From contig QCNR01000006.1 of assembly GCA_003210075.1 (NCBI GenBank), positions 1 to 64,000 of the forward strand: a stretch of DNA of 64,000 bases. Reading direction: 5' to 3'. Positions 7,570 to 55,345 of the stretch are shown here, in pieces. A program made the translations under genes and the position numbers. The stretch comes from Pelagibacteraceae bacterium AG-426-G09 (GTDB lineage: Bacteria; Pseudomonadota; Alphaproteobacteria; Pelagibacterales; Pelagibacteraceae). A model generated the notes under the pieces. That model worked only from the letters and a program-made list of their open reading frames with translations, ran no database searches and was not told the DNA's origin. The first letter of the stretch is position 1, and every line of letters starts with the position of its first letter.

Positions 7570-8292
7570 ATGAATAAAAAGAAAATAATTATTTTTACAG
7601 GTGGAAACGGTAGATTTGGGAGAGTATTCCAATCTTTAAATAAAAATAAAAAAATTCTTTTTCCAAGCAAAAGTGAATTCAATATTCTTAGCACTAATAA
7701 CATGAGAAAATATATTAAAAGAAAAAAACCAAATTATATAATTCATGGTGCGGGTCTCTCCAGACCTATGTCTGTACATGACAAAAATATTGGAAAAAGT
7801 ATTGATTTAAACATTGTTGGTACCTGCAATATTGTAAAAGTTTGTGTAGAAAATAATATTAAACTAATTTATTTCTCAACAGCATATGTATATCCAGGCA
7901 AAAAAGGAAATTACAATGAAACAGACGCACTTAAACCAATAAACAATTATGCTTGGTCAAAATTAGGAGGTGAGGCTGCTGTACAAATGTACAAAAACTC
8001 CTTAATTTTAAGGCTGTCAATGACTGAAAAACCATTTGTTCACAACAAAGCATTTTATGATTTCAAAACAAATTTTATGTTTCACATAGATTTTGCAAAA
8101 ATATTATTAAAACTAATTAATAAAAGAGGAATAATTAATGCTGGTGGTAAAAGTCAAACTGTTTACAATTTTGCAAAAAAACAAAATTCAAAAGTTGGCA
8201 AAGTTTCTTACAAAAAGTTTTATGGAAAGAAATCATCGATTGACATATCTATGAGTATTTTTAAATTAAAAAAATTATTGTCCAAAAAGTAA
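7570..8292 (+). CDS. SDR sugar nucleotide reductase, RmlD/RfbD-like
   Basis: A 240-aa extended SDR with TGGNGRFGRVF near residue 10 (NAD(P) binding), YFSTAYVYPG near residue 100 and YAWSKLGGE with the Tyr-x-x-x-Lys pair near residue 127. The architecture and the IIHGAGLSRP strand resemble dTDP-4-dehydrorhamnose reductases. It is shorter than a full RmlD (about 290-300 aa), with a reduced C-terminal substrate domain. The rfbBAC cluster later in this window lacks rfbD, so this may be the missing reductase, though that is inference. Its last 32 bases overlap the convergent azlD gene. Confidence 0.75.
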   Translation: MNKKKIIIFTGGNGRFGRVFQSLNKNKKILFPSKSEFNILSTNNMRKYIKRKKPNYIIHGAGLSRPMSVHDKNIGKSIDLNIVGTCNIVKVCVENNIKLIYFSTAYVYPGKKGNYNETDALKPINNYAWSKLGGEAAVQMYKNSLILRLSMTEKPFVHNKAFYDFKTNFMFHIDFAKILLKLINKRGIINAGGKSQTVYNFAKKQNSKVGKVSYKKFYGKKSSIDISMSIFKLKKLLSKK

Positions 8293-8575
8293 TCAAGCCT
8301 CCTAATATTGTTATAATCAAATTTTTTGTAATAATACCTATTATAAAAGAAATTAAAATAGCTATTACTTTTGGATCGTTTAACTGTACTAACTGATTTT
8401 CTTGATTTAAAAAAACTGCAGGAAATATTATAGCGGGGAAAACTGCAGACGGTACATAAGTAAGAATTTTTTTAGTTCTCTCACTCATTTTTTTTGGATT
8501 TATAGCTAAAACTGAAACTAATCTGGTTAAATAATTTATTAAACCTGCAATAATGATTGAAAACCAAATACTCAT
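8261..8575 (-). CDS. azlD: AzlD family branched-chain amino acid export subunit
   Basis: A small 104-aa integral membrane protein with three or four hydrophobic segments. The pattern near the N-terminus (NYLTRLVSVLAI) and KILTYVPSAVFPAIIFPAVF match the AzlD family, the small partner of AzlC in LIV-E type branched-chain amino acid exporters. Its ATG overlaps the azlC stop by four bases, so the two subunits are coupled. The 3' end overlaps the convergent RmlD-like gene by 32 bases. Confidence 0.85.
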   Translation of the reverse strand: MSIWFSIIIAGLINYLTRLVSVLAINPKKMSERTKKILTYVPSAVFPAIIFPAVFLNQENQLVQLNDPKVIAILISFIIGIITKNLIITILGGLITFWTIIFLI

Positions 8576-9261
8576 TTTTTTTTTATTTTAATTAAAATTG
8601 TTGCACCAATTAGTGCAATTATACTTGATAAAATAATATATGCTTTAAAAGGTGCATCAAAAAAAACAATGGATGAAATACCTGACAATATAATAACTAT
8701 TAAGTGATCAATTTTTCTTAAATAATTAACTAATAATGCAAGAAAAGTAAGTGGAATTGTAAATGTTAAACCTAACTCCTCTGGAACTATTGATCCTAAA
8801 AAAATACCTATAATTGTTGTTGCTTGCCAAATAAACCATAAGGTAAAACCTGAGCCAACAAGATAATAATGTTTAAATATATTATCATTATTTTTTTTAA
8901 AATATTCATTTGATACTGCAAAGGCTTGATCTGTAAGTAAATAAGATAATCCAATTTTCCAATATATTGATAAATGGTTTAAGTGTTGACTTACCACAGC
9001 TCCATATAAGAGATGTCTTGTGCTTACAACCGATGAGGAGGTTATTGCAACTAAAGATGAAGCTCCAGCTGAAAACAATTGAAGTATTACTATCTGACTC
9101 GCTCCACTAAATATTATTACCGATGTTGCATAAGTTAAATAAGGTCCAAAACCAAGCTCAATGCCTATTGCACCAAATATTATCCCAAATGGTACTACTG
9201 GTATCATTAATGGCATAACATCAATTACACCTTTAAAAAAAGTATTTGATTTTGAATACAT
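8572..9261 (-). CDS. azlC: AzlC family branched-chain amino acid permease
   Basis: The 229-aa membrane protein has the AzlC hallmark GVIDVMPLMIPVVPFGIIFG near the N-terminus and IIFSGASQIVILQLFSAGAS, with five or six hydrophobic helices. With AzlD it should form an inner-membrane exporter of branched-chain amino acids or analogues. It lies directly after the GGCT-fold gene, whose stop abuts its neighbourhood without a spacer, and is followed by azlD with a four-base overlap. No signal peptide is expected; the first helix starts near residue 15. Confidence 0.9.
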   Translation of the reverse strand: MYSKSNTFFKGVIDVMPLMIPVVPFGIIFGAIGIELGFGPYLTYATSVIIFSGASQIVILQLFSAGASSLVAITSSSVVSTRHLLYGAVVSQHLNHLSIYWKIGLSYLLTDQAFAVSNEYFKKNNDNIFKHYYLVGSGFTLWFIWQATTIIGIFLGSIVPEELGLTFTIPLTFLALLVNYLRKIDHLIVIILSGISSIVFFDAPFKAYIILSSIIALIGATILIKIKKK

Positions 9262-9669
9262 TTATCTAATTGGATTTAATGCTTTTAATAAATAAGATTT
9301 ATCTAAATCACAATCTTTATAACCTTGTTTAATTACGTTAAGATATCTTTCTGTTGGATATCTGAACTCAGTTTTATTATTCATAAAATAAGTCATTACT
9401 TTTTTATTATAATAATAAAAATATATTTTTTTGTATAAAATTGGAAAATCTTCATAAATATCTAGTTTTTTCTCATCACTTTTTGAAATTTCAAACAATC
9501 CACCAGGAACAATTGAGTTCTTTTTTTTTTCAATGTCCGCAGCCCTATAATTGCTTCTAAAATTAAGTTTATAACCCCTAAGTTCAAATTTTTTCAGAAA
9601 AACTGAATCTTTGCATCTTCTTTTCATTTGAAAATGATTTAGATTACTACCATATGCAAAATATAACAT
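9262..9669 (-). CDS. Gamma-glutamylcyclotransferase-fold protein (AIG2-like)
   Basis: The 135-aa protein opens with LYFAYGSNLNHFQMKRRC, the substrate-binding YGSN loop of the GGCT/AIG2 family, and has GGLFEISKSDEKKLDIYEDFP near residue 70, where the acidic residue of the LDxYE motif is the usual catalytic base. Family members release 5-oxoproline from gamma-glutamyl amino acids or amines. The start overlaps the stop of the upstream CinA-like gene by one base (TAATG), indicating coupled translation. The substrate is unknown. Confidence 0.82.
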   Translation of the reverse strand: MLYFAYGSNLNHFQMKRRCKDSVFLKKFELRGYKLNFRSNYRAADIEKKKNSIVPGGLFEISKSDEKKLDIYEDFPILYKKIYFYYYNKKVMTYFMNNKTEFRYPTERYLNVIKQGYKDCDLDKSYLLKALNPIR

Positions 9670-10421
9670 TAAACATCCTCAATGATTTTAATTGATTTGG
9701 AATTAACAAAATTTAAAATTTCTTTGTTACATTGGTCTAATTTATTTCTATTAGAAGACCTAAGAACTATTGACACGCCAAGCTTCCCAGCTTTAAAGAA
9801 AGGATAGCTGCCAATTTCAACATCTTTATTTTTATTTTGTATTTCAGTAATTGATTTTGCAATTTCACTTTCAACAGTTCTAAGACTGATTGTTAAATTT
9901 AAAATTGGATCGCCACCGATCAGTATATTATTTAATCCACCAATCATTGATTGAAGAATTGATGGCACCCCCGGTAAACAAAAAACGTTATCAACATAGA
10001 ACCCAGGCGCACCACTTGTTGGATTTAAAATTAAATTTGCTGTGGTAGGCATTTTTGCCATTTTTTGCCTTCCATCATTAAATTCACCTGGTTTGTAATA
10101 TTTTTCTAAAATAGAATAAGCCTCTTTATGAAAACCATAGTTTAAATTAAATGCTTTAGAAACAGATTCAGCTGTAATATCATCGTGAGTAGGCCCTATA
10201 CCACCAGTAGTAAAAATATAATTAAACCTTTTTCTTAAATTGTTAACTGTTTCAATTATGATTGCCTCATCGTCAGCAATTATTCTTACTTCTTTGACTT
10301 GAATACCAAGGGAATTTAACCACTTTGCTAAAGTAGAAGTATTTATATCTTTAGTTCTGCCCGATAATACCTCATTACCAATTATAATAATTCCAGCAGT
10401 TATTTCTTTTTTATTTGTCAT
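9669..10421 (-). CDS. CinA-like / molybdopterin-binding domain protein
   Basis: The 250-aa protein is the stand-alone MoaB/Mog-fold domain found at the N-terminus of CinA (COG1058): AGIIIIGNEVLSGRTKDINTSTLA near residue 9, FTTGGIGPTHDDITAESV near residue 70 and LPGVPSILQSM near residue 148. In full CinA this region hydrolyses ADP-ribose while a separate domain deamidates NMN; the deamidase domain is absent here. A role in nucleotide-cofactor housekeeping is therefore plausible, molybdenum cofactor binding less so. It is divergent from sfsA with only 22 bases between starts. Confidence 0.85.
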   Translation of the reverse strand: MTNKKEITAGIIIIGNEVLSGRTKDINTSTLAKWLNSLGIQVKEVRIIADDEAIIIETVNNLRKRFNYIFTTGGIGPTHDDITAESVSKAFNLNYGFHKEAYSILEKYYKPGEFNDGRQKMAKMPTTANLILNPTSGAPGFYVDNVFCLPGVPSILQSMIGGLNNILIGGDPILNLTISLRTVESEIAKSITEIQNKNKDVEIGSYPFFKAGKLGVSIVLRSSNRNKLDQCNKEILNFVNSKSIKIIEDV

Positions 10422-10443
10422 TTCTCAATATAAATAAACTAAA

Positions 10444-11130
10444 ATGAAATTTACCAACAGTTTAATCAAAGGCAAATTAATTAAAAGGTATAAAAGATTT
10501 TTTGCAGATGTTGAAGTAAATAATAAAATTTTAACTGCTCACTGCCCAAATACTGGATCCATGCACGGTTTATTGGATAAAGGAAATGACGTATGGATTT
10601 CAAAAGCAGACGATCCTAAGAGAAAATTAAAATACACTCTTGAAATGATTAAATCAAAAAACAAAATTATTGGTGTTAATACTCATAGAGCAAATCGAAT
10701 AGTTGAGCACGGATTAAAAAATAAATTATTTAATGAGTTTAATTCAGTAAAAAATATTAAGCCAGAATTTAAATATTCTGATGATACAAGGTTTGATTTT
10801 TTATGTGATAAATACCTTATCGAAGTTAAAAATGTAACTCTTAACAGAAATGATAGTATCGCAGAATTTCCTGATGCTGTCACATTAAGAGGGTCAAAAC
10901 ACTTAAAAAAATTAACAGAGTCTATAACAAAAGGATATATTCCGTATGTATTATTTCTAATTCAAATTCAGAATATTTCTAAATTTAGAATAGCAAAAGA
11001 TATAGATTCAGATTATTATAATAATTTTCTTAAAGCAAAAAAAAAGGGGTTAAAATTTATTGCATATAGATGCAAATTGAGTTCAAAAAAAATTGTAATT
11101 GAAAAAAAAATATTAATTGATCATGACTAA
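10444..11130 (+). CDS. sfsA: SfsA family DNA-binding/nuclease protein
   Basis: The 228-aa protein fits SfsA along its length: KRYKRFFADVEV near residue 14, AHCPNTGSMHGLL near residue 32, GVNTHRANRIVEHGL near residue 77 and the nuclease-like DTRFDFLCDKYLIEVKNVTL, where the Asp and the Glu-x-Lys form a PD-(D/E)XK-type site. SfsA was first described as a sugar fermentation stimulation protein and its biological role is unsettled. It starts 22 bases from the divergent CinA-like gene and its end overlaps map by eight bases. Confidence 0.92.
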   Translation: MKFTNSLIKGKLIKRYKRFFADVEVNNKILTAHCPNTGSMHGLLDKGNDVWISKADDPKRKLKYTLEMIKSKNKIIGVNTHRANRIVEHGLKNKLFNEFNSVKNIKPEFKYSDDTRFDFLCDKYLIEVKNVTLNRNDSIAEFPDAVTLRGSKHLKKLTESITKGYIPYVLFLIQIQNISKFRIAKDIDSDYYNNFLKAKKKGLKFIAYRCKLSSKKIVIEKKILIDHD

Positions 11131-11893
11131 ATATAAAGAAAAATTTGAAAAAATGAGAATTGCTGGGAGTCTAGCTTCAAAAACTTTAGACATGTTAATA
11201 GGATATATTAAACCAGGAATTACAACAGCAAAAATTGATCAACTAGGATTTGAATTTATAAAAGATAATGGAGGTTTTTCAGCTCCACAGTTTTACAGAG
11301 GTTTTAAAAAATCACTTTGTACTTCATTAAATCATGTTGTTTGTCATGGAATTCCTTCTGATCGTATTTTAGAAGATGGTGATATAATTAATATTGATGT
11401 AACTGCAGTTGTCGATGGATATCACGGGGACACAAGTAGAATGTATGCTGTTGGAAATCCTTCTGTAAAATCAAAAAATTTAATTGATGTGACTTATGAA
11501 TCAATGATGAAGGCAATAAAAATTTTAAAACCTGGGATTAGATTAGGAGATATTGGGCATGAGATACAAAGTTATGTAGAGGAAAAAGGGTATTCTGTTG
11601 TAAAAGATTTTTGTGGACACGGTATTAGCAATACATTCCACGAGACACCAAATATACTCCATTATGGAAAAAAAAATACAGGTCTAGAAATTTATCCTGG
11701 AATGACTTTCACGATAGAACCTATGATAAATGCTGGGAAGTATGAAGTTAAAATTTTAAATGACGGTTGGACTGCTGTCACCAAAGATAAGTCTTTATCT
11801 GCACAATTTGAACATACTGTGGGAATAACTGAAAATGGATATGAAATTTTCACAGAATCTGTTAAAGGATATAATAAACCCCCATACTTATAA
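11123..11893 (+). CDS. map: Methionine aminopeptidase, type I
   Basis: The enzyme removes the initiator methionine from nascent proteins using a two-metal centre. All five ligand sites are visible: IDVTAVVDGYHGDTSR (two Asp), FCGHGISNTFHETP (His), FTIEPMI (Glu) and SAQFEHTVGIT (Glu). The ORF track starts at a TTG at 11117; the ATG two codons later (MTKYKEKFEKMR, 256 aa) fits type I Map better. The stop overlaps the purB start in TAATG, placing map at the head of the purine operon. Confidence 0.95.
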   Translation: MTKYKEKFEKMRIAGSLASKTLDMLIGYIKPGITTAKIDQLGFEFIKDNGGFSAPQFYRGFKKSLCTSLNHVVCHGIPSDRILEDGDIINIDVTAVVDGYHGDTSRMYAVGNPSVKSKNLIDVTYESMMKAIKILKPGIRLGDIGHEIQSYVEEKGYSVVKDFCGHGISNTFHETPNILHYGKKNTGLEIYPGMTFTIEPMINAGKYEVKILNDGWTAVTKDKSLSAQFEHTVGITENGYEIFTESVKGYNKPPYL

Positions 11894-13185
11894 TGATTGA
11901 TAGATATTCTAGAAGTGAACTAAAAGCCATTTGGTCTGAAGAAAATAAATATAAAATTTGGTTAGATATTGAAATTGCTGCTGCTGAAGCAATGGAAAAA
12001 TATAAAATTATACCCAAAGGTGTTTCTTCTATCGTAAAAAAAAAAGCGAAGATTAAGGTAAAACGAATACATGACATTGAGAATAAAGTTAAACATGATG
12101 TAATTGCATTTCTTACATCAATTACCGAACAAGCAGGTATAAAAGCAAGATACCTTCATCAAGGGATGACATCATCTGATGTTTTGGATACTGCTTTTAA
12201 CATACAATTAAAACAGTCTGGAGAAATTTTATTAAAAGATATTGATAAAATTCTTTTAATTTTAAAAAAACAAGCAAAGAAATACAAATTTACTCCATGT
12301 ATTGGAAGAAGTCATGGAATACATGCAGAGCCAATAACCTTTGGTTTAAAACTAGCTTCATTTTACGAAGAGTTTAAAAGAAATAAAAAAAGACTAGCTA
12401 GTGCAATTTTTGATATTTCTACATGCGCTTTATCTGGTGCCGTAGGAACATATGCAAATGTTGATCCTAGAATTGAAAGTTATGTTGCAAAAAAATTAAA
12501 ACTATATCCAGAACCAATTTCAACTCAAATTATTCCTAGAGACAGACATGCTCATTATTTTTCTGTTTTAGGGATTATTGCAGGAAGTATCGAGAGAGTG
12601 GCTATAGAAATAAGACATTTACAAAGATCGGAGGTTTATGAGTTACAAGAATTTTTTTCTAAAGATCAAAAAGGTTCATCAGCAATGCCACATAAAAAGA
12701 ATCCAATATTAAGTGAAAATTTAACTGGTCTCGCTAGAGTTGTAAGAAGCTACACTATTCCAGCGCTTGAAAATATTGCCTTATGGCATGAGAGAGATAT
12801 ATCCCATTCCAGCGTAGAGAGAAATATTGGACCAGATGCGAATATTACATTGGATTTTGCTTTGATAAGATTATCAAATATTTTAGACAAAGTGATAATT
12901 TATCCAAAAAAAATGATTCAAAATATTAATCTAACAAAAGGTTTAATTTTTTCACAAGAAATTATGTTAGAGCTAACAAAAGCTGGAATAACTAGAGAAA
13001 AATCATATAAGCTTGTTCAATCTTATGCGAATAAATGTTTTGCTGAAAATAAAAATTTATTTGATTTGATATCTAATGATAAAAAAATTATGTCTATTAT
13101 CAGTAAAAAGAAATTAAAATTAATTTTTAATTATTCTACACACTTTAAAAATGTTAACTTTATTTTTAAAAGAATATTCAAATAA
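11893..13185 (+). CDS. purB: Adenylosuccinate lyase
   Basis: PurB splits SAICAR to AICAR plus fumarate and adenylosuccinate to AMP plus fumarate. The 430-aa protein is typical for the fumarase/aspartase superfamily; visible blocks are HQGMTSSDVLDTAF near residue 88, the RSHGIHAEP histidine region near residue 140, and the signature GSSAMPHKKNPILSENL near residue 262 carrying the mobile catalytic-serine loop. It overlaps map and purC by one base on each side (TAATG), so it is the first purine gene of a translationally coupled series. Confidence 0.96.
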   Translation: MIDRYSRSELKAIWSEENKYKIWLDIEIAAAEAMEKYKIIPKGVSSIVKKKAKIKVKRIHDIENKVKHDVIAFLTSITEQAGIKARYLHQGMTSSDVLDTAFNIQLKQSGEILLKDIDKILLILKKQAKKYKFTPCIGRSHGIHAEPITFGLKLASFYEEFKRNKKRLASAIFDISTCALSGAVGTYANVDPRIESYVAKKLKLYPEPISTQIIPRDRHAHYFSVLGIIAGSIERVAIEIRHLQRSEVYELQEFFSKDQKGSSAMPHKKNPILSENLTGLARVVRSYTIPALENIALWHERDISHSSVERNIGPDANITLDFALIRLSNILDKVIIYPKKMIQNINLTKGLIFSQEIMLELTKAGITREKSYKLVQSYANKCFAENKNLFDLISNDKKIMSIISKKKLKLIFNYSTHFKNVNFIFKRIFK

Positions 13186-13967
13186 TGAAAAAAGGTAAAA
13201 AACTTTATGAAGGAAAGGCAAAAATTATCTTTGCTTCAGCTGAAAAAAACTTGGTTATTCAACATTTTAAAGATGACGCGACAGCATTTAATAATCAAAA
13301 AAAAGCAAATATAGAAGGCAAAGGTATATTAAATAATAGAATTTCAGAACATATTTTATCTGCGTTAAAGGATGTGGGTATTGAAAATCATTTAATTAAA
13401 CGTCTTAATATGAGAGAACAACTAATTGATTTAGCTGAAATTATACCTATTGAATTTATTGTAAGAAATATTGTTACAGGATCTTTAACTAAAAGACTAG
13501 GCATTGAGGAAGGAACTATTTTAAATAAACCATTGATTGAGTTTTGTTACAAAAATGATCAATTAGGGGATCCTCTAGTTTCAAGAGAGCATATAGATGT
13601 GTTTGGATGGGCTACATTATCTGAACTTAATTTAATTACCGATCAATGCCTACGTATAAATGATTTCTTACAAGGAATGTTTAGAGGGATTAATATCAAA
13701 CTCATTGATTTCAAATTAGAATTTGGAAAACGAAAATCTGATGGTAAAATTATTTTAGCAGATGAGATAAGTCCAGATACTTGTAGATTGTGGGATGCTG
13801 ATACAGATAAAAAATTAGATAAAGATAGATTCCGAAAGGATTTAGGAGATGTTGTTGAAGCTTATCAAGAAGTTGCGAGAAGATTGGGAATTCTGCACGA
13901 GCAAGTAAGCAATGTAAGACCAATCAAATTCCCAAAACCTACTGCAGTTAAAATTAAGAAAAAATAA
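13185..13967 (+). CDS. purC: Phosphoribosylaminoimidazole-succinocarboxamide synthase
   Basis: PurC condenses CAIR with aspartate using ATP to form SAICAR. The 260-aa sequence shows the N-terminal KLYEGKAKIIF, KDDATAFNNQKKANIEGKGILNN near residue 29, IPIEFIVRNIVTGSLTKR near residue 88, IDFKLEFGK near residue 175 and DEISPDTCRLWD near residue 191, all PurC signatures. Both junctions are one-base TAATG overlaps. The proline- and lysine-rich C-terminal tail after residue 245 is a short extension of no known role. Confidence 0.97.
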   Translation: MKKGKKLYEGKAKIIFASAEKNLVIQHFKDDATAFNNQKKANIEGKGILNNRISEHILSALKDVGIENHLIKRLNMREQLIDLAEIIPIEFIVRNIVTGSLTKRLGIEEGTILNKPLIEFCYKNDQLGDPLVSREHIDVFGWATLSELNLITDQCLRINDFLQGMFRGINIKLIDFKLEFGKRKSDGKIILADEISPDTCRLWDADTDKKLDKDRFRKDLGDVVEAYQEVARRLGILHEQVSNVRPIKFPKPTAVKIKKK

Positions 13968-14200
13968 TGAAAATAAAAGTAATAGTCACTCTAAAAAAAG
14001 GTGTCTTAGATCCTCAGGGAAAAGCAATTCTACAAACTTTAAATGGAATGGGTTATTCTAATATCGATGAAATAAGACAGGGAAAATTTTTTGAAATTAG
14101 CGTAAATGAAGATAATGAAGCAAAAGCTAAAGCACAAGTTGAAGATATGTGCAAAAAACTGTTAGCTAACCTTGTGATTGAGGATTATAAAATTATTTAG
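13967..14200 (+). CDS. purS: FGAM synthase subunit PurS
   Basis: The 77-aa protein is the small structural subunit of the three-part FGAM synthase (PurS-PurQ-PurL). It carries the family features VTLKKGVLDPQGKAI near residue 8 and the GKFFEISV strand near residue 39. PurS dimers bridge the glutaminase and synthetase and are needed for ammonia channelling. It overlaps purC by one base and is followed by purQ after only six bases. Confidence 0.95.
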   Translation: MKIKVIVTLKKGVLDPQGKAILQTLNGMGYSNIDEIRQGKFFEISVNEDNEAKAKAQVEDMCKKLLANLVIEDYKII

Positions 14201-14206
14201 CCACCA

Positions 14207-14890
14207 ATGAAATCATCAGTAATTATTTTTCCAGGTTCAAATTGTGATAGAGATATGGATGTAGCTCTTAAAAAATTTGGATTTAAGAACACAATGGTTT
14301 GGCATGATAATCAATCAATACCAAAAAGTGATTTAATAGTATTGCCTGGTGGGTTTTCTTATGGAGATTATTTAAGATGTGGAAGTATTGCTTCAAAGTC
14401 AAAAATAATTAAGTCTGTGATAGATTTTGCTAATTCTGGAGGATTGGTACTTGGTGTTTGTAATGGATTTCAAATTTTAACCGAAACAGGTTTACTGCCA
14501 GGTATTCTTCAACAAAACAAATATTTAAATTTTATTTGTAAAAATATTTTTGTAAAAATTAAAGACAAAAAAAATAAATATTTTAAAAATATAAAAAAAG
14601 ATATTTTAGAGTTACATATCGCCCACAATGAAGGAAATTTTTTTTGTACTGAAGCAGAATTAAAAAACCTAGAAGACAATAATCAGATAGCTTTAACCTA
14701 CTGTAGTTCAAATGGATTGGAGGATGAGATTAACAATCCAAATGGTGCAATCAAAAATATAGCAGGTATATTTAATAAAAATAAAAACGTCTTAGGAATG
14801 ATGCCCCACCCTGAAAGAATGATTGATAAATTTCTCTCTGGAGAAGATGGTTCATTATTTTTTGAAAACCTATTAGGAAATTTAAAATAA
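14207..14890 (+). CDS. purQ: FGAM synthase glutaminase subunit PurQ
   Basis: PurQ is a class I glutamine amidotransferase that supplies ammonia to PurL. The 227-aa sequence shows [10 protein letters not shown] near residue 9, the nucleophile elbow [10 protein letters not shown] near residue 83 with catalytic Cys, and the C-terminal GMMPHPERM holding the His and Glu of the triad. An insertion of lysine-rich residues around 105-125 is unremarkable for this AT-rich genome. The stop overlaps purL by one base. Confidence 0.96.
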
Positions 14891-46831: not shown

Positions 46832-47221
46832 ATGAATAAAATTTTAGTAGAAGTATCAATCGGAGAACTTTTAGATAAGCTTTCAATATTAGAAATTAAA
46901 CAAGAAAAAATAAAAGACACTGACAAACTTGAATACATTAATGATGAGTATAGTGTTCTGAAAGAACAACTATCTAAAAATGTTAAATCAGACGAAAAAC
47001 TTAATAAATTGTTTAATTCTTTAAAAGAAATTAATTCAAAATTATGGATAATAGAAGATGATAAAAGAATGTGTGAGAAAAATTCTGATTTTGGAGAAAA
47101 ATTTATAAAACTTTCTAGAGATGTGCATTTTTTAAATGATGATAGAGCTAAGATAAAATTTCAAATAAACGAACATACTGGATCTAAAATTAAAGAAATA
47201 AAAGAATATACTAAATATTAA
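46832..47221 (+). CDS. DUF6165-like protein of unknown function
   Basis: The 129-aa soluble protein opens with VEVSIGELLDKLSILEIKQEKI and is mainly charged helices with probable coiled coils between residues 15 and 110, including LWIIEDDKRMCEKNSDFGEKFIKLSRDVHFLNDDRAKIKFQIN. It resembles DUF6165 proteins, usually encoded beside lipopolysaccharide glycosyltransferases. Its start is about 35 bases from the divergent GT9 gene, in keeping with that link. Function is unknown. Confidence 0.75.
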   Translation: MNKILVEVSIGELLDKLSILEIKQEKIKDTDKLEYINDEYSVLKEQLSKNVKSDEKLNKLFNSLKEINSKLWIIEDDKRMCEKNSDFGEKFIKLSRDVHFLNDDRAKIKFQINEHTGSKIKEIKEYTKY

Positions 47222-48003
47222 TTTAAACTCGGTATTACTTTTCTTAATTTAAAAGACAGACCCGGATCGATATCTGCATAAATTATTCCTATACCTTTTT
47301 TTTTAATTTTTAAAATTTTTCCATCTGGGGAAATTATTACACTATGACCAAAGGTTTCCCTTTTTTTTGTATTTTTACCAAATTGGTTGGGAGCAAAGAT
47401 ATAACAAAAATTTTCAATAGCTCTTGCTTTAAGTAAAGTTAACCAATGTTTTTGACCTGTTATTTTTGTAAATGCAGAAGGAACACTAATAAAATTCAAA
47501 TTTTTTTTTGACAAGCTTCTATAAATCTCTGGAAATCTTAAATCAAAACAAATTGTGAGGCCCAGTCTTCCCCAAGGAAGTTTTACTGACACAAGCCTTT
47601 TTCCTGGAATATATGTTTTGCTCTCTTTATGCCGTTCTTTATTTGGAAGTTTGACATCAAACATTTTGATTTTATCATAATAAGCAATAATTTTTCCCAT
47701 TGGGTTTATCATAATTGATCTATTTCTATATTTTTTTTTATCCTTAATTGGCAATGATCCAATTAAAATCCATTTTTTATTTTTCTTTGCAATTTCTTTT
47801 ACTTTTAAAAGTAAAGGGTCGCTTCCCATGTTAAAAGTATTTTTATACAATATTTTTTTATTACTTGTTATTAAAGATGTTGTTTCAGGTGTTATAATTA
47901 AATCAGCTTTATTTTTAATCGAAAGATTTATAAATTTTATTATTTGATTAAAATTTTTACTATAGTTTTCACCTGCTGAAGATTGAATGCAAGCAACTTT
48001 CAT
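47218..48003 (-). CDS. Carbon-nitrogen hydrolase (nitrilase superfamily, Nit type)
   Basis: The 261-aa enzyme has the full Glu-Lys-Cys triad: LIITPETTS near residue 39, the lysine in AYYDKIKMFDV near residue 110 and the nucleophile in LGLTICFDLRFPEIYRSL near residue 150. The FDLRFPE sequence suits the Nit/omega-amidase branch, which hydrolyses omega-amides or deaminated glutathione. It overlaps the last ABC permease gene by one base (TAATG), so it is expressed with an amino acid importer. Hydrolysis of an imported amide is an attractive inference. Confidence 0.85.
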   Translation of the reverse strand: MKVACIQSSAGENYSKNFNQIIKFINLSIKNKADLIITPETTSLITSNKKILYKNTFNMGSDPLLLKVKEIAKKNKKWILIGSLPIKDKKKYRNRSIMINPMGKIIAYYDKIKMFDVKLPNKERHKESKTYIPGKRLVSVKLPWGRLGLTICFDLRFPEIYRSLSKKNLNFISVPSAFTKITGQKHWLTLLKARAIENFCYIFAPNQFGKNTKKRETFGHSVIISPDGKILKIKKKGIGIIYADIDPGLSFKLRKVIPSLN

Positions 48004-48674
48004 TAATAATTATACTTTCTTTCAAGAAACTTAATAAAATTATGTATTAAAAATGTCATAAATAAATAAATACTTCCGGCAACTATGAATACCTCTATTG
48101 GTTTAAAAGTTGTTGAAATTATATACTTTGCGACACCCGTCAAATCCATTAGTGTGACTGTACTTGCTAGTGAAGTTCCTTTTAACATCAAAATAATTTC
48201 ATTACCATACGCAGGAAGAGATTGCCTAATAGCAATTGGTATTTGTATTTTATAAAAAATAATTTTGCTTGATATACCTAGACTTTTCCCAGCTTCAATG
48301 TATCCTTTTTTAATTGTTTCGAATGCTGATCTTAGTATTTCTGATGTGTACGCTCCTGTATTAAGAGCAAAAGCAATTATTGCACACCAATAAGGTTCTT
48401 TTAATATTATCCATAAAAAACTTTCTCTAATGAATTCTATTTGCCCAAAACCAAAGTAAATTATAAAAATTTGGACTAGCAAAGGTGTTCCTCTAAATAA
48501 ATAAGAGTAACCATATGCAAATTTATTTAATATAAGATTTGTACTCATTCTCATTACTGCAAAAAGTAAACCTATAAATAATCCAAAGAATAATGATAAA
48601 GATAATAATTTTAGTGTTACTACAGTCGCGTTTAGTAACTTAGGAAAACTATTAATCATCAATTCTAAATCCAT
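48003..48674 (-). CDS. Polar amino acid ABC transporter permease (HisM/OccM type)
   Basis: The 223-aa inner-membrane permease has five hydrophobic segments and the family traits YLFRGTPLLVQIFIIYFG near residue 59 and the EAA loop YIEAGKSLGISSKIIFYKIQIPIAIRQSLPAYGNE near residue 125, which docks with the ATPase subunit. It overlaps the second permease gene by one base upstream and the hydrolase gene by one base downstream. With HisQ-like and binding-protein partners it should import a basic or polar amino acid or opine. Confidence 0.92.
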   Translation of the reverse strand: MDLELMINSFPKLLNATVVTLKLLSLSLFFGLFIGLLFAVMRMSTNLILNKFAYGYSYLFRGTPLLVQIFIIYFGFGQIEFIRESFLWIILKEPYWCAIIAFALNTGAYTSEILRSAFETIKKGYIEAGKSLGISSKIIFYKIQIPIAIRQSLPAYGNEIILMLKGTSLASTVTLMDLTGVAKYIISTTFKPIEVFIVAGSIYLFMTFLIHNFIKFLERKYNY

Positions 48675-49366
48675 TAAAAGCCCCTACTATATTTAATTTC
48701 TAATCTGTTTATTAATTTCATACTAAGGAAAGTAAGTAACAAGTACAAAACAGCTGCAAAAGAATAAAAAAATAATGGATCTCTGGTTGATCCAGCTGCA
48801 ATATAAGATTGTCGCATAATTTCAACTAATCCGGTTACAGAAATTAGTGAAGTATCTTTTAATGTAATTTGCCATACATTGCTTAAATTTGGTATTGCTA
48901 ATCTTAACATTTGAGGCAGAATAATTTTATAAAATTGTATATGTTTTTTTATGCCTAAAACTTTAGATGCTTCAAACTGTCCTTTATCTATAGACTGAAT
49001 TGCACCTCTAAAAACCTCAGTTGAATAGGCACCTGAAATAATTCCAATTGCAAAAGATCCAGTAATAAATGCATTGATTTCTATATACTCGTAATAACCA
49101 AACATAGAAGCAACAAACATAATTGCACCACTTCCCCCAAAAAAAAATAAATAAATAACTAAAAGCTCGGGCACCCCTCTAATAACTGTAGTATAAAAAT
49201 TTCCAATTACGTTTAATGATTTATATTTAGATAATTTTAAAGGTGTGAAGATTAGAGCAAATAAAAAACCTATTAACATTGCTGTTATCGAAACAGCTAT
49301 AGTCATCAGGGTAGCATAAAATAACTCATCTCCCCAACCAGTTTTTCCAAATGCTAGAAGTTCCAT
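48674..49366 (-). CDS. Polar amino acid ABC transporter permease (HisQ/OccQ type)
   Basis: The 230-aa permease has TVIRGVPELLVIYLFFFGG near residue 62 and the EAA loop QFEASKVLGIKKHIQFYKIILPQMLRLAIPNLSNVWQ near residue 133. It is the first permease after the binding-protein gene. Its start codon is six bases from a strong 25-base hairpin, and no ribosome site is free of that structure, so its translation is probably weaker than that of the binding protein. The LPQMLRLAIPNLSNVW segment is the usual one for HisQ-like subunits. Confidence 0.92.
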   Translation of the reverse strand: MELLAFGKTGWGDELFYATLMTIAVSITAMLIGFLFALIFTPLKLSKYKSLNVIGNFYTTVIRGVPELLVIYLFFFGGSGAIMFVASMFGYYEYIEINAFITGSFAIGIISGAYSTEVFRGAIQSIDKGQFEASKVLGIKKHIQFYKIILPQMLRLAIPNLSNVWQITLKDTSLISVTGLVEIMRQSYIAAGSTRDPLFFYSFAAVLYLLLTFLSMKLINRLEIKYSRGF

Positions 49367-49410: not shown

Positions 49411-50262
49411 TTACATAGAAGCATCAAAACCGAACCACTTAGTAGCGATTCTGCTTATGTCTCCATTTTTTCTTGCTTTGTTAATAGCCATATTGAAATC
49501 TTTTAAAAGTTGGGCATCTCTCTCGCCAATTGCACCACTTCCACCTTTTCTAATTCCAACACCTACTCCATTTCCAAAAGCTCCACCTGAAAATGTTGGT
49601 CCAACTAATACTACAGGTTTACCGGATTTTTCTGCGTAATCTGTAAATGCAACTGCCGCAGCTAATGCAACGTCACATCTTCCAGCAGCTAAATCTAAGT
49701 TTACTTCATCCTGAGTTTTGTAAGTTCTTACATTTACACTTCCTACATCACCAGAGTCTAAAAAGTTTTGGTGAATAGTAGCTGTTTGAACACAAACGGT
49801 TTTACCAGCCAATGCACCTTCAATAGTTTTAAGTGCTTTTTTTACAGCGCCTCCACCTATTGATAAGTTTATTCCCGAGGGTGTATCCATGCCTTCAAGG
49901 TCTGATCCCTTCATGACAGCTAGCTGAGCAACTTCATCTGCATAACCTTGTGAAAAATTAATTGTTTTTAATCTTTCATCTGTAATTGACATCCCTGCCA
50001 TGATCGCATCAAATTTTCTCATAAGCAAAGCTGGTATCATACCATCCCAATCTTGCTCAACGATCTCACATTGTTTTCCGATGTATCTGCAAAGTGTCCA
50101 GGCTAGTTCAACCTCAAACCCTATTAACTTTCCAGAAGCATCTTTAGAATTCCATGGAGGATAAGCACCTTCAGTTCCAATTTTTATTGTATCAGAGTAT
50201 ACGTTTGTCATGATAAATAAAGAAGCTAGAACCGATATTATAGTTTTTTTGAATATATTCAT
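49411..50262 (-). CDS. Periplasmic amino acid-binding protein of ABC importer
   Basis: The 283-aa protein begins with a signal peptide (MNIFKKTIISVLASLFIMTNVYS) followed by the family-3 solute-binding domain: IKIGTEGAYPPWNSKDASGKLIGFEVELAWTLCRYIG near residue 26, MIPALLMRKFDAIMAGMSITDER near residue 80 and a hinge at VCVQTATIHQNFL. The GAYPPWNSKD motif fits HisJ/ArgT/OccT-like proteins binding basic amino acids or opines. An AAAGGAG ribosome site sits seven bases before the ATG, consistent with high expression. Confidence 0.93.
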   Translation of the reverse strand: MNIFKKTIISVLASLFIMTNVYSDTIKIGTEGAYPPWNSKDASGKLIGFEVELAWTLCRYIGKQCEIVEQDWDGMIPALLMRKFDAIMAGMSITDERLKTINFSQGYADEVAQLAVMKGSDLEGMDTPSGINLSIGGGAVKKALKTIEGALAGKTVCVQTATIHQNFLDSGDVGSVNVRTYKTQDEVNLDLAAGRCDVALAAAVAFTDYAEKSGKPVVLVGPTFSGGAFGNGVGVGIRKGGSGAIGERDAQLLKDFNMAINKARKNGDISRIATKWFGFDASM

Positions 50263-50323: not shown

Positions 50324-51364
50324 TTAGTGATTTACAGATGTGTAAAAATTCCAAGAACTATCGAAACTTGGAATATAAACTCTATCTAGGGTAGCATTTC
50401 CAAAGTTTTTATTGAATACATCTTTCCAGTTTTCGACCTGTTTTGGTCTTTTGTCTTGACTGCCAACTTGTGCAGTAACTACCCCATTTGGCTTTAAAAC
50501 TCTAATAATTTGATCCATATTTTTGGCTGCAAGATCTATGCAGAATTGATCATCATTAAGATCAATATATATTTTATCATATGTGTCGGTTTCAACTTTC
50601 TTAATACTTTCAAAGGCATCACCCCAAACACATTTAACTGAATTTTTTTCGGTTGCCTTTTGACCAATTGTTCCAAGATGTTTGTCACATACTTCAACAA
50701 CCTCTGGATCTAATTCATACCAATCTATGAAACCAAAATTTTTAGATATACATTCCCTTGCGACTCCTCCGTCTCCTCCACCAATTATTGCAGCTCTATC
50801 TTTTGAAGAATTCAGTTTTAATCCTGAATTTACAAATGTTGAACTATACAAATGTTCATCGCATGAAGCTACTTGCAAATCTTTATCTATAAATAAAGAT
50901 TTACCAAATTCTTCTAGATCTAAAATTTGAACATGCTGACCAACTTTTGATACAAAATCTTCGAGAACATCTTTTACAACATATGATTTCTGCATTCCTG
51001 GTGTGCTGGAGGTATCAAAGTAATTTTCAACTGTATGTCGGTCAAAAGATTTTTTAACAATTCTTTTACATTTAATTTCACTTTTAATTACATCTAAAGC
51101 TACGTTTGGAGAAACTTTTCCACATGTAAAAAAATCAAAACTTATAATTCCATGTTCTGGAAATGTATGAAAACTAATATGACTTTCTGCAAGTAGTGCA
51201 ACTAATGTAAAGCCTTGTGGTTCAAATTTATATTTTGATATATTTAGAACAGTCACCTTGGCTTTATCTGCTATTTTATGAACTAAACCCTCAAAAAATG
51301 AAGGCTCATATTCGCCAGTTGTACCGATAATATCGAGAGTGATGTGCTCTCCTACTTTAATCAT
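50324..51364 (-). CDS. Fused S-adenosylmethionine decarboxylase-aminopropyltransferase
   Basis: A two-domain protein of 346 aa. Residues 1-115 are a bacterial SpeD/SpeH-type AdoMet decarboxylase: LLAESHISFHTFPEHG holds the Glu60-Ser61 self-cleavage site that yields the pyruvoyl cofactor, and FFTCG (Cys81) the catalytic Cys. Residues 140-346 are a spermidine synthase-type aminopropyltransferase: AIIGGGDGGVARE (193-204), YELDPEVVEV (216-225), WGDAFE and IYIDLND with the catalytic Asp. The usual YHE after DE is YSS here and DxxDP is DLNDD, so the amine substrate may differ. It would make decarboxylated AdoMet and use it in one chain, releasing methylthioadenosine. It is last in an operon with MTA-salvage genes. 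Confidence 0.88.
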   Translation of the reverse strand: MIKVGEHITLDIIGTTGEYEPSFFEGLVHKIADKAKVTVLNISKYKFEPQGFTLVALLAESHISFHTFPEHGIISFDFFTCGKVSPNVALDVIKSEIKCKRIVKKSFDRHTVENYFDTSSTPGMQKSYVVKDVLEDFVSKVGQHVQILDLEEFGKSLFIDKDLQVASCDEHLYSSTFVNSGLKLNSSKDRAAIIGGGDGGVARECISKNFGFIDWYELDPEVVEVCDKHLGTIGQKATEKNSVKCVWGDAFESIKKVETDTYDKIYIDLNDDQFCIDLAAKNMDQIIRVLKPNGVVTAQVGSQDKRPKQVENWKDVFNKNFGNATLDRVYIPSFDSSWNFYTSVNH

Positions 51365-51370
51365 AAAAAA

Positions 51371-52033
51371 TTATCCCCTCTTATAACCTTTTACTTTTTC
51401 TAAAATCTTTTGCATTTCTGCAAAAGTCAGATTCTTTGGCTCTCCTAGCTTTATCGCAAGAAAGTATTGGTGGCAAATGTTTTCTACTTCTTGTGCAAGT
51501 TCAAATGCCTTGCTTAAACTTTCTGCAAATGCAATCTGTCCGTGATTTGCCATTAAGCATGCCTTTCTTTTTTCTAAAGCTTTTAAAATATTTTGAGATA
51601 ATTCCTTAGTTCCAAAAGTAGCATAGTCTGCACATTTAATATCGTCTCCACCCATAAGTGCAATCATATAGTGAAATGGTGGAATAGATTTACGATGAGT
51701 AGATATCGCTGTGGCATGTGCGGAATGAGTATGAACTATTGCTTTTGCTTCAGGTTTTTTTCTATAAATATCTTGATGAAAGCGCCATTCTGATGAAGGA
51801 TTTAAACCTGAATTTGCAATTTTTAAATAATCATATTCAGTTTTTAAAGACATAAAAACAATATCTGTCAATTTGAGTTTTTCATATTTAATACCTGAAG
51901 GTGTTATGTAAAATCCCTCATCATTATCTATTTTAGCTCTAACAGATAAATTTCCTGATCTTAGGGGAGATAAATTAGTCGAATTAAGTTTTAAAGAATA
52001 ATCTATTACCTGTTGTTTTAAATCCTCGTTCAT
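51371..52033 (-). CDS. Class II aldolase, FucA-like (probable 5-methylthioribulose-1-phosphate aldolase)
   Basis: The 220-aa protein is close to L-fuculose-phosphate aldolase: SGNLSVR near residue 30, PSSEWRFHQDIY with the catalytic Glu near residue 80, the zinc-binding HTHSAHATAIS near residue 100, HYMIALMGGDDIKCADYATFGTKELS and ANHGQ with a further zinc His. ATG 52033 is preferred to the TTG at 52045; it lies one base after the mtnA stop. Downstream of MtnA, a FucA-like aldolase would split methylthioribulose 1-phosphate into DHAP and 2-(methylthio)acetaldehyde (DHAP shunt). MtnB dehydratase is the alternative, but the FucA resemblance argues against it. Confidence 0.82.
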   Translation of the reverse strand: MNEDLKQQVIDYSLKLNSTNLSPLRSGNLSVRAKIDNDEGFYITPSGIKYEKLKLTDIVFMSLKTEYDYLKIANSGLNPSSEWRFHQDIYRKKPEAKAIVHTHSAHATAISTHRKSIPPFHYMIALMGGDDIKCADYATFGTKELSQNILKALEKRKACLMANHGQIAFAESLSKAFELAQEVENICHQYFLAIKLGEPKNLTFAEMQKILEKVKGYKRG

Positions 52034-52034
52034 C

Positions 52035-53108
52035 TTATTTATCAAATAATTTCTTAAGTCCTGAGGAAGATGCTTCGCATACTCCTTTCTCGGTTATTAA
52101 CGCTGTAACATATTTTGCAGGTGTTACATCAAAAGCAAGATTCATTGCCTTACTTTTTTTTGGATAAACTTGAATTTTTTTTAAGTTACCATTCTCATCC
52201 AAACCTTCGATGTGTGATAATTCTTCAGAATTTCTCTCTTCAATTGGAATTTCTTTATAATTTTTTATATTCCAGTCAATTGTCGAGCTTGGTAGAGCAA
52301 CATAAAAAGGAACTCTGTTATCATGAGCTGCTAATGCTTTTAGATAAGTTCCAATCTTATTACAAACGTCTCCATTAGACAAAGTTCTGTCTGTTCCAAC
52401 AATACACATATCCACCTCTCCTCTTTGCATTAAAATCCCCCCTGTATTATCTGCAATAATAGTATTTTCAATTCCTTCCTCATTTAATTCATAAGAAGTT
52501 AAATTAGCACCCTGATTTCTGGGTCTTGTTTCATCAGCCCAAATATGAACTGGAATTCCTTTTTTATGAGCATGGTAAATTGGCGATGTTGCTGTTCCCC
52601 AATTTATAGTTGCAAGCCAACCTGCGTTACAATGAGTTAAAATGTTAACTGTATCTTTCTTTTTATTATAAATTTCTTCGATTATCTTTAATCCGTTCAA
52701 ACCTATTTTTTCACAAAAAACAATATCTTCTTCACATATTTCATTGGCTTCATTAATTGCGAATTCTAAAATTTTATCACTATTTACACCAGATAATCTT
52801 TTCAACATTCTATCTACAGCCCATTTAAGATTAATTGCTGTAGGTCTTGAATTAATCAAATCATTTACAGATTGTTTTAAAAATGATTGATCATTGTTTT
52901 CAATTATTGCCAAAACTATTCCATAAGCAGCTGTAGCTCCTATTAATGGTGCACCCCTAACTTCCATATTTTTAATTGCATTAATTGCATCTTTAATACT
53001 TTTAAGATTTTTAATTATAAATTGATGAGGTAGCTTTGTCTGGTCTATTATTTTTACTACATTGTTTTCAAACCAAATGGTACGGTATTCTTTCCCTTCT
53101 ATTCTCAT
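52035..53108 (-). CDS. mtnA: S-methyl-5-thioribose-1-phosphate isomerase
   Basis: The 357-aa eIF2B-like isomerase converts methylthioribose 1-phosphate to the ribulose form. RGAPLIGATAAYG lies at residue 51, LTHCNAGWLATINWGTA places the catalytic Cys at residue 160, and VDMCIVGTDRTLSNGDVCNKIGTY the catalytic Asp at residue 240, the same numbering as the Bacillus enzyme. It follows the dioxygenase gene by nine bases and precedes the aldolase gene by one. The full set of active-site residues makes this assignment strong. Confidence 0.96.
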   Translation of the reverse strand: MRIEGKEYRTIWFENNVVKIIDQTKLPHQFIIKNLKSIKDAINAIKNMEVRGAPLIGATAAYGIVLAIIENNDQSFLKQSVNDLINSRPTAINLKWAVDRMLKRLSGVNSDKILEFAINEANEICEEDIVFCEKIGLNGLKIIEEIYNKKKDTVNILTHCNAGWLATINWGTATSPIYHAHKKGIPVHIWADETRPRNQGANLTSYELNEEGIENTIIADNTGGILMQRGEVDMCIVGTDRTLSNGDVCNKIGTYLKALAAHDNRVPFYVALPSSTIDWNIKNYKEIPIEERNSEELSHIEGLDENGNLKKIQVYPKKSKAMNLAFDVTPAKYVTALITEKGVCEASSSGLKKLFDK

Positions 53109-53117
53109 TTTTTAATT

Positions 53118-53909
53118 TTAATTACTCCAAACAATAGGAAACCAATCATTTCTCATTTTATCCCCATTTTTTAAATTTATATTTTTGAAAGGTGGTGATG
53201 TTTCGCCTTCTCTATCAATAAATCTTACATCATCGCCTATAAATCTTGCAGAGAAAGCTTTACGTATTTTCTTATCATTATTTCCTGTAGTTGAATGTAA
53301 GACTTTAAAATTAAATAAAATAGCATCTCCTAAGTTCAAATCAGTATTAAAAATATTATTTTCATCAATAATTGGCATATCTATAAATTTTTCATTATTT
53401 TCATACCATGATTTATCATTAGACCATTTTGTTGGCCTTACCAGCTTTGGTAAATTATGAGATCCTTTCAAAACTTTTAAAGAATTTTCTTTTGAAACAT
53501 TATCTAATGGTATCCAAAAACTACCTGTGTCATTTCCCTCTATACAATAATAAGGAAGATCTTGATGCCATGGAGTTTCCTTTTTTGTGCCAGGATCTTT
53601 TAAAAATATATGCTCATGGAAAACTTGAATACTATTTGAACCAGTTGCCTGTGCTACAATTTGTGCTGCAGGAGAATTTAAAATAAAATCTTTAAATTCT
53701 TCTATTCTTTCCCAATTGCAATAATCCTCAAAAAATCTTCCATCATTTTTATTTAAAACGTTCTCTCTTGCATGCGGGCCTGGATTTTTTATTACTTTTT
53801 CAAATCCATTTGTTAGTTTTTCTATCCAGGGCAAAAAAATTCCTTTGATTAAAATAACTCCATCTCTTTTATAATCAGAAATTAGTTGATTAGATATTTT
53901 TATTGTCAC
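53118..53909 (-). CDS. PhyH-type Fe(II)/2-oxoglutarate dioxygenase
   Basis: The 263-aa protein has the phytanoyl-CoA dioxygenase fold: the iron-binding HQDLPYYCIEG (His-x-Asp, about residue 119), the second His in LFNFKVLHSTTGNN near residue 206, and an Arg in RKAFSARFIGDD near residue 217 that would hold 2-oxoglutarate. It starts at GTG overlapping the mtnP stop by four bases and lies nine bases before mtnA, so it is embedded in the MTA-salvage operon. No standard step of that pathway needs such an enzyme. Oxidation of a methylthio compound or polyamine-derived substrate is possible but unproven. Confidence 0.85.
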   Translation of the reverse strand: MTIKISNQLISDYKRDGVILIKGIFLPWIEKLTNGFEKVIKNPGPHARENVLNKNDGRFFEDYCNWERIEEFKDFILNSPAAQIVAQATGSNSIQVFHEHIFLKDPGTKKETPWHQDLPYYCIEGNDTGSFWIPLDNVSKENSLKVLKGSHNLPKLVRPTKWSNDKSWYENNEKFIDMPIIDENNIFNTDLNLGDAILFNFKVLHSTTGNNDKKIRKAFSARFIGDDVRFIDREGETSPPFKNINLKNGDKMRNDWFPIVWSN

Positions 53910-54778
53910 TTTTTTAAAACTCTTCCAGCTATAGCACTTAATTTTTCAATTGTATTTTTAGTTCTTTTTTCGGGTGATGTAATAATTGCAACATCTAAAC
54001 AATTATTAGTTGGATCTTTAGGGTCAATGTTATTTTCGAAATTATCTATTAAATTTTTAATCATATTTTTAGCTTTAGCTGCATTGCCTAAAAGAACCTT
54101 AATAACTTGTTGAACATCAACATTTGCATGGTCTGGGTGCCAACAATCATAGTCAGTAACCATTGAAACTGATGCATATCTTATTTCAGCTTCCCTTGCT
54201 AATTTTGCTTCAGGCATATTAGTCATTCCTATTACATCGGCTTTCCAAGATCTGTATAAATTAGATTCTGCTAATGTAGAAAACTGAGGGCCCTCCATAA
54301 CAACATAAATTCCACCCCTTTGATATTCAATTTTTTCTTTTTTGATTGCTTCTTCGCATGCGTTCATCAATCCATTGGATGTGGGATGAGCCATTGAAAC
54401 ATGAGCTACTATCTCATCATCAAAGAAAGTTTTATTTCTAGCGAAAGTTCTATCTATGAATTGATCCACAATTACAAATTTACCAGGTGGTAATTCTTCT
54501 TTTAGAGAACCAACAGCTGATACTGATACAATATCAGTGATACCCAGTTGTTTAAGTGCACTTATATTTGCTCTAAAATTTATATTAGAAGGATTAATAA
54601 AATGTCCTTTTCCATGTCTTGGTAAAAAATAAACCTCCTTATCATTATAGTTAGTCTTTAAAATTTGATCCGAAGGTTTTCCCCAAGGTGTTTTAATTTC
54701 CAATAATTCTCTCTCCTTGAACTCTTCAACATCATAAAGGCCACTTCCACCTATTATTGCTAATTTATTTTTTGACAT
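53906..54778 (-). CDS. mtnP: S-methyl-5'-thioadenosine phosphorylase
   Basis: MtnP phosphorolyses MTA to adenine and methylthioribose 1-phosphate. The 290-aa protein shows AIIGGSGLYDVEEF at residue 8 (phosphate site), YFLPRHGKGHFINPSNINFRANI near residue 50, VVMEGPQFSTLAESNLYRSW near residue 185 and GMTNMPEAKLAREAEI near residue 208, with DYDCWH near residue 226, fitting MTAP rather than purine nucleoside phosphorylase. It is the first gene of the five-gene operon and divergent from apt, with 39 bases between starts. Confidence 0.95.
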   Translation of the reverse strand: MSKNKLAIIGGSGLYDVEEFKERELLEIKTPWGKPSDQILKTNYNDKEVYFLPRHGKGHFINPSNINFRANISALKQLGITDIVSVSAVGSLKEELPPGKFVIVDQFIDRTFARNKTFFDDEIVAHVSMAHPTSNGLMNACEEAIKKEKIEYQRGGIYVVMEGPQFSTLAESNLYRSWKADVIGMTNMPEAKLAREAEIRYASVSMVTDYDCWHPDHANVDVQQVIKVLLGNAAKAKNMIKNLIDNFENNIDPKDPTNNCLDVAIITSPEKRTKNTIEKLSAIAGRVLKK

Positions 54779-54817: not shown

Positions 54818-55345
54818 ATGAATCTTAAAGAATATATTAGATCGATACCTGATTATCCAAAAAAGGGAATTTTATTTAGAGATATAACAACTTTAATTAA
54901 GAATGAAAAAGCTTTTGAAAAAACAATAAATCAAATTATAAAAATATTAGAAAATTATAAATTTGACAAGATTGCAGCTATTGAGTCTAGGGGTTTTGTT
55001 TTTGCATCAGCAGTTTCATATTTATTAAAGAAACCATTTATTTTATTAAGAAAGAAAAATAAATTACCAGCCGAAAGATATTCTGTTGATTTTGAACTTG
55101 AGTATGGAACGGCTACAATAGAAATGCATAAAGATTCTGTTTCCAAAGATGAGAAGATAGTAATAATTGATGATTTAATTGCAACTGGAGGAACCGCTGA
55201 AGCTGGAGCTAAAATAATTGAAATGGGACATGGTAGAGTTGAATTATTTATATTTGTAATAAACTTATTTGATCTTGGTGGATGTGATAAACTTATTGAA
55301 AAAGGTTATAAAGTTGAGAATTTGATTGAATTTCCTGGACACTAA
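54818..55345 (+). CDS. apt: Adenine phosphoribosyltransferase
   Basis: The 175-aa enzyme converts adenine and PRPP to AMP. It has YIRSIPDYPKKGILFRDITTLIKN at residue 5, IAAIESRGFVFASAVSYLL near residue 52 and the PRPP-binding IVIIDDLIATGGTAEAG near residue 109. Lying head to head with mtnP, it recovers the adenine released from MTA, so the shared 39-base spacer may coordinate both. The stop overlaps the convergent glycosyltransferase stop by four bases. Confidence 0.97.
   Translation: MNLKEYIRSIPDYPKKGILFRDITTLIKNEKAFEKTINQIIKILENYKFDKIAAIESRGFVFASAVSYLLKKPFILLRKKNKLPAERYSVDFELEYGTATIEMHKDSVSKDEKIVIIDDLIATGGTAEAGAKIIEMGHGRVELFIFVINLFDLGGCDKLIEKGYKVENLIEFPGH

Follow-up and report, generated by a model that had tools for sequence, protein, structure and literature searches.

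The locus raises the question of what an oxygenase is doing within an operon for the salvage of S-methyl-5′-thioadenosine (MTA), where no known step on the way to DHAP needs one, a point on which the sequence-only reading was right. The window, the whole 64,000-nucleotide stretch analysed here, belongs to a SAR11 genome; among the public matches listed, the top relative of its oxygenase is that of Pelagibacteraceae AG-447-L04, at 92% identity. The gene order on the minus strand is mtnP–PhyH–mtnA–class II aldolase–speDE–SBP–PermA–PermB–nitrilase-family gene, with apt divergent. Both mtnP (53906..54778), encoding S-methyl-5′-thioadenosine phosphorylase (NCBIfam PRK08931, 443.4 against a cut-off of 437), and mtnA (52035..53108), encoding methylthioribose-1-phosphate isomerase (TIGR00512, 420.8 against 279), exceed their equivalog cut-offs, so that the MtnP and MtnA of the DHAP shunt are in place. 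The class II aldolase (51371..52045; Ald2-like, L-fuculose-phosphate aldolase family) carries a PF00596 domain (E=1.1e-50) yet lies under all NCBIfam cut-offs shown, and is the putative methylthioribulose-1-phosphate aldolase of the shunt. Profile matches identify speDE (50324..51364) as a fused S-adenosylmethionine decarboxylase/spermidine synthase, a local source of MTA. It is followed by an amino-acid ABC solute-binding protein (SBP, 49411..50262), very close over its mature part to PDB 8hqr, and by the open reading frames of two permeases, PermA (48674..49366) and PermB (48003..48674), the order SBP–PermA–PermB being kept in relatives. A carbon–nitrogen hydrolase of the nitrilase superfamily (47218..48003) takes the position after PermB that PhyH fills in other genomes. 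The divergent neighbour apt (54818..55345, plus strand) encodes adenine phosphoribosyltransferase, and adenine is what MtnP releases. PhyH is probably co-transcribed with its neighbours in this MTA-salvage, spermidine and amino-acid-uptake locus.

The oxygenase gene itself lies at 53118..53909 on the minus strand, starts with GTG and encodes 263 residues of the PhyH family of Fe(II)/2-oxoglutarate (2OG) oxygenases (PF05721, E=3.5e-21; score 76.9 bits, cut-off 22). It overlaps mtnP by 4 bases (GTGA) and its stop lies 9 bases before mtnA; family, coordinates, overlap and gap, all proposed earlier, were confirmed by the open reading frames and Pfam. By alignment to human PHYH and to MysH, H115, D117 and H205 were assigned as the iron ligands and R216 as the 2OG-binding arginine. 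Conservation of all four reaches 95% or more in each of the gene contexts described below and outside SAR11, from which we conclude that the gene has not decayed. A chance open reading frame or pseudogene is likewise ruled out by the PF05721 score together with these residues. The conservation extends well beyond the metal site: at least 95% identity across the three SAR11 contexts (slots I, II and III below) as well as in non-SAR11 relatives was also found at G17, P43, F59, D62, C64-N65-W66, F97-H98, H100, K104, T112-P113-W114, Y120-Y121, S220, R222 and D226-D227, among others. The motif GRFFEDYCNW (residues 57–66) corresponds to the alphaproteobacterial subfamily signature GRFF[ED]DYCNW. Twelve positions vary between SAR11 contexts, mostly conservatively, the exceptions being G107S, S206G and E236P. 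An AlphaFold2 model built from 36 sequences (pLDDT 95.1) superseded a poor one from SAR11 sequences alone (pLDDT 69); its best fold matches are PhyH-type oxygenases and the predicted structure has the double-stranded beta-helix fold. The product is predicted to be an active Fe(II)/2OG oxygenase, a part of the overall explanation given below, in which we have moderate confidence.

We surveyed the gene context in the best 80 public loci by similarity, all from Pelagibacteraceae/Pelagibacterales, so that the following counts are shares of that set and not frequencies. In 49 of them PhyH lies between mtnP and mtnA (slot I), in most with the same 4-base overlap, and the order mtnP–PhyH–mtnA is also seen in a second genus (G074). 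This recurrence shows that the linkage is not due to chance, and the sequence-only reading was right to place PhyH in an operon with mtn genes. In a further 18 loci PhyH is the last gene after speDE–SBP–PermA–PermB, directly 3′ of PermB and with short gaps (slot II); in several of these (L108, L120, G022) mtnP–mtnA–aldolase–speDE–SBP–PermA–PermB–PhyH all lie on one strand. In the remaining 13 (slot III) PhyH adjoins a glycosyltransferase, usually followed by TauD, TrpB-like, DUF1015, SerC and SerA genes, the last named from sequence only. The protein tree separates a slot II clade (support 100/99) and a slot III clade (95/99), with genus g9, whose members carry PhyH at three further positions, as sister to the latter. 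Conservation next to mtnP and mtnA in relatives, the check suggested by the sequence-only reading, holds for the 49 loci of slot I and not for the 18 loci with PhyH after PermB or the 13 with it elsewhere. That reading had also named homologues away from mtn genes as evidence against its own interpretation, which is weakened because such homologues exist: the 13 loci of slot III, a complete SAR11 genome and a genus outside SAR11, the latter two described below.

Several features of these loci deserve mention in their own right. Slot III examples include L103, L105, L107 and L113, around positions 8001–14500, and the TrpB-like/DUF1015 pair found there also adjoins the mtn locus in L121, L131 and L094. 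In L104 a second, distinct PhyH-family oxygenase (10718–11545) lies directly after PermB, the first already being between mtnP and mtnA. Most slot I relatives have a sulfatase/PehA-like hydrolase directly after mtnA in the place of the aldolase (L025:10169–11752, and similarly among L055–L087). A fused class II aldolase/short-chain dehydrogenase of 677–682 residues, often between mtnA and speDE on the opposite strand, occurs where the small aldolase is missing (L080:10478–12526, minus strand; L124, L128–L130, L212–L214 and L216); it might replace the small aldolase and process the aldehyde.

The distribution of PhyH and the mtn genes was then compared within SAR11. The complete, single-contig genome G012 carries PhyH, yet mtnP, mtnA and the aldolase have no match there; in this genome (L021:4253–4780), as in L123, an MtnN-like nucleosidase between apt and speDE replaces mtnP–mtnA–aldolase. 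PhyH is also present in G789 and G790, where mtnP and mtnA were not found. Of the absences recorded outside G012, most come from incomplete genomes. Seven genomes with PhyH in slot III retain their mtn genes at a separate locus. In four (G777, G778, G779 and G783; loci L190, L191, L192 and L194) mtnP and mtnA are close together with no PhyH between, and in three (G776, G781 and G784; loci L189, L195 and L196) an unrelated gene, c89, lies between them. These data show that PhyH is independent of mtnP, mtnA and the aldolase. The converse is common, since a PhyH ortholog (60% identity or more) was found in 29 of 297 sampled genomes of the family and mtnA in 52 of the 57 SAR11 genomes tested. In 20 ortholog-negative genomes the gap between mtnP and mtnA was empty or held c89 or other proteins of 336–351 residues, indicating that it is a variable slot. 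The c89 product, about 309 residues long and hydrolase-like by eye, is predicted to be secreted, and its gene fills this slot in many of the genomes that have no PhyH at that position (for example L110:1980–2906, L128:519–1448, L195, L196, L204, L213, L214, L217 and L218).

Outside SAR11, 35 of the 385 alphaproteobacterial genomes searched match the subfamily at E<=1e-70. mtnA is present in 21 of these carriers and missing in 14; the association is not significant (p=0.11). Where both genes are present, in 21 genomes, PhyH never lies within 10 kb of mtnA. The four nearest relatives, all from genus g54 and 48–50% identical to the window protein, are without mtnA; mtnP has no match in three of them and a weak match in the fourth.

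The explanation we favour, and hold with moderate confidence, is that PhyH is an accessory oxygenase of small molecules, akin to MysH, that has been taken up into variable positions of this locus, rather than a step that MTA salvage requires, because its relatives keep the active site in other neighbourhoods and in genomes without the MTA pathway. PhyH would have settled in at least three slots in SAR11, two of them inside the MTA-salvage, spermidine-synthesis and amino-acid-uptake locus. By analogy with MysH, 2OG and O2 would generate an Fe(IV)=O species at the active site, which would hydroxylate some small polar metabolite at a carbon adjacent to a heteroatom, and we infer that the substrate is of the amine or amino-acid type. 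The likeness of the active-site residues in all contexts favours one shared chemistry, and this counts against any intermediate exclusive to mtnA-containing cells, MTA itself remaining compatible. Of the alternatives named by the sequence-only reading, a polyamine-linked enzyme and a passenger are both tenable, though two of the three slots of PhyH in SAR11 lie within one locus of about nine genes, more than is expected for an unrelated passenger. Since slot I is in addition widely conserved with the same overlap, PhyH is likely to have some functional link with MTA, spermidine or arginine in the lineages of slots I and II.

One form such a tie could take, which we nevertheless judge unlikely, is that PhyH hydroxylates arginine or lysine imported by the ABC system, or putrescine or spermidine from SpeDE. 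The position of PhyH as last gene after SBP–PermA–PermB in the 18 loci of slot II would fit this, as would its persistence with speDE–SBP after loss of mtnP, mtnA and the aldolase. The SBP points to the same class of substrate, being close to 8hqr, the arginine/lysine-binding protein SAR11_1210 of HTCC1062, and belonging to a sequence family that fits cationic amino acids and opines. Hydroxylases of free amino acids, such as proline hydroxylase H11 and GriE, are among the fold relatives of PhyH. Against this, PhyH in context III, in g9 and in the non-SAR11 relatives examined is not beside ABC or spe genes, and G298 has PhyH although neither SBP nor speDE was detected in this 92% complete genome. 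The co-occurrence of PhyH with SBP and speDE is in any case uninformative, since nearly all SAR11 genomes have the latter two whether or not they have PhyH. A literature search for hydroxyspermidine with dioxygenases found nothing, and the matches to PhyH with SAR11 concern, by their titles, other organisms or communities.

A minority view, which we consider rather improbable, is that PhyH acts on a methylthio compound in MTA salvage and releases methanethiol. Its attraction lies in the tight mtnP–PhyH–mtnA operon and in the precedent of Rhodopseudomonas palustris, where an aerobic route supplied by MtnP, MtnA and Ald2 runs via 2-(methylthio)ethanol to methanethiol, its terminal enzymes being unassigned in 2018 (PMC5893883); the titles and abstracts searched yielded no later identification of them. 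Hydroxylation alpha to a heteroatom is moreover the reaction predicted for MysH (PMC10510106). However, G012 keeps PhyH though mtnP, mtnA and the aldolase are gone, context III has its mtn genes away from PhyH, and most SAR11 with mtnP–mtnA–aldolase are without PhyH. The nearest non-SAR11 relatives, which have no mtnA and in three of four cases no mtnP match, carry the same catalytic and motif residues. The idea that the methylthio aldehyde or thiol undergoes an oxidative step, as suggested by the sequence-only reading, is accordingly unsupported, given G012, context III and the non-SAR11 carriers without mtnA. Direct action on MTA or methylthioribose would make mtnA dispensable and so reconcile the operon position with mtnA-less genomes, but that the subfamily sets methanethiol free by cleaving the C–S bond of a methylthio compound, be it MTA itself, methylthioribose or 2-(methylthio)ethanol, strikes us as very doubtful.

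The remaining candidates can be dismissed briefly: an obligatory role in the DHAP shunt or MTA salvage is ruled out by G012, context III, PhyH-negative genomes with all three genes and the 14 of 35 non-SAR11 carriers without mtnA; replacement of a lost aldolase is unsupported, Ald2 not being found in 13 of 33 PhyH-positive and 4 of 13 PhyH-negative genomes; and a lipid role like that of human PHYH was rejected because acyl-CoA genes are absent nearby and the identity is only 21%.

Were the substrate a methylthio compound after all, PhyH would supply an enzyme for a reportedly unknown step of aerobic MTA-to-methanethiol salvage in very abundant ocean bacteria. As an accessory oxygenase, it cautions that a tight operon position in SAR11 is no proof of pathway membership, because unrelated genes can occupy this gap and the enzyme also works from other positions.

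The DHAP shunt and its aerobic DHAP–methanethiol variant use MtnP, MtnA and Ald2, and in the window the genes mtnP and mtnA and that of a class II aldolase stand in order, but the shunt as described contains no oxygenase (PMC5893883), and PhyH and the shunt genes occur without each other. Ectoine hydroxylase EctD, proline hydroxylase H11 and leucine hydroxylase GriE share the fold and act on small polar amino-acid-like substrates, at about 15–18% identity to the window protein. Human phytanoyl-CoA 2-hydroxylase (PHYH, PDB 2a1x) shares the Pfam family and fold, and its H-x-D...H and arginine residues align, but at about 21% identity and with no acyl-CoA genes nearby the class of substrate is not indicated. 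Among solved structures the nearest is that of MysH (PDB 9c9n), an enzyme of mycosporine-like amino acid synthesis and the best match both by profile (E=1e-46) and by fold (Foldseek E=4e-23, TM 0.78, 26% identity), ahead of the amino-acid hydroxylases of this fold; PhyH has the Fe/2OG residues and a GDD motif in common with it, whereas the DYCNW and FHEH motifs of the window subfamily are replaced in MysH. The neighbours of PhyH are mtn, spe and ABC genes and not mycosporine genes, and both this and the 26% identity speak against a close MysH ortholog within a mycosporine cluster. What MysH does offer is a chemical model, since it is predicted to hydroxylate an N-linked glycine side chain so that the side chain falls off (PMC10510106).
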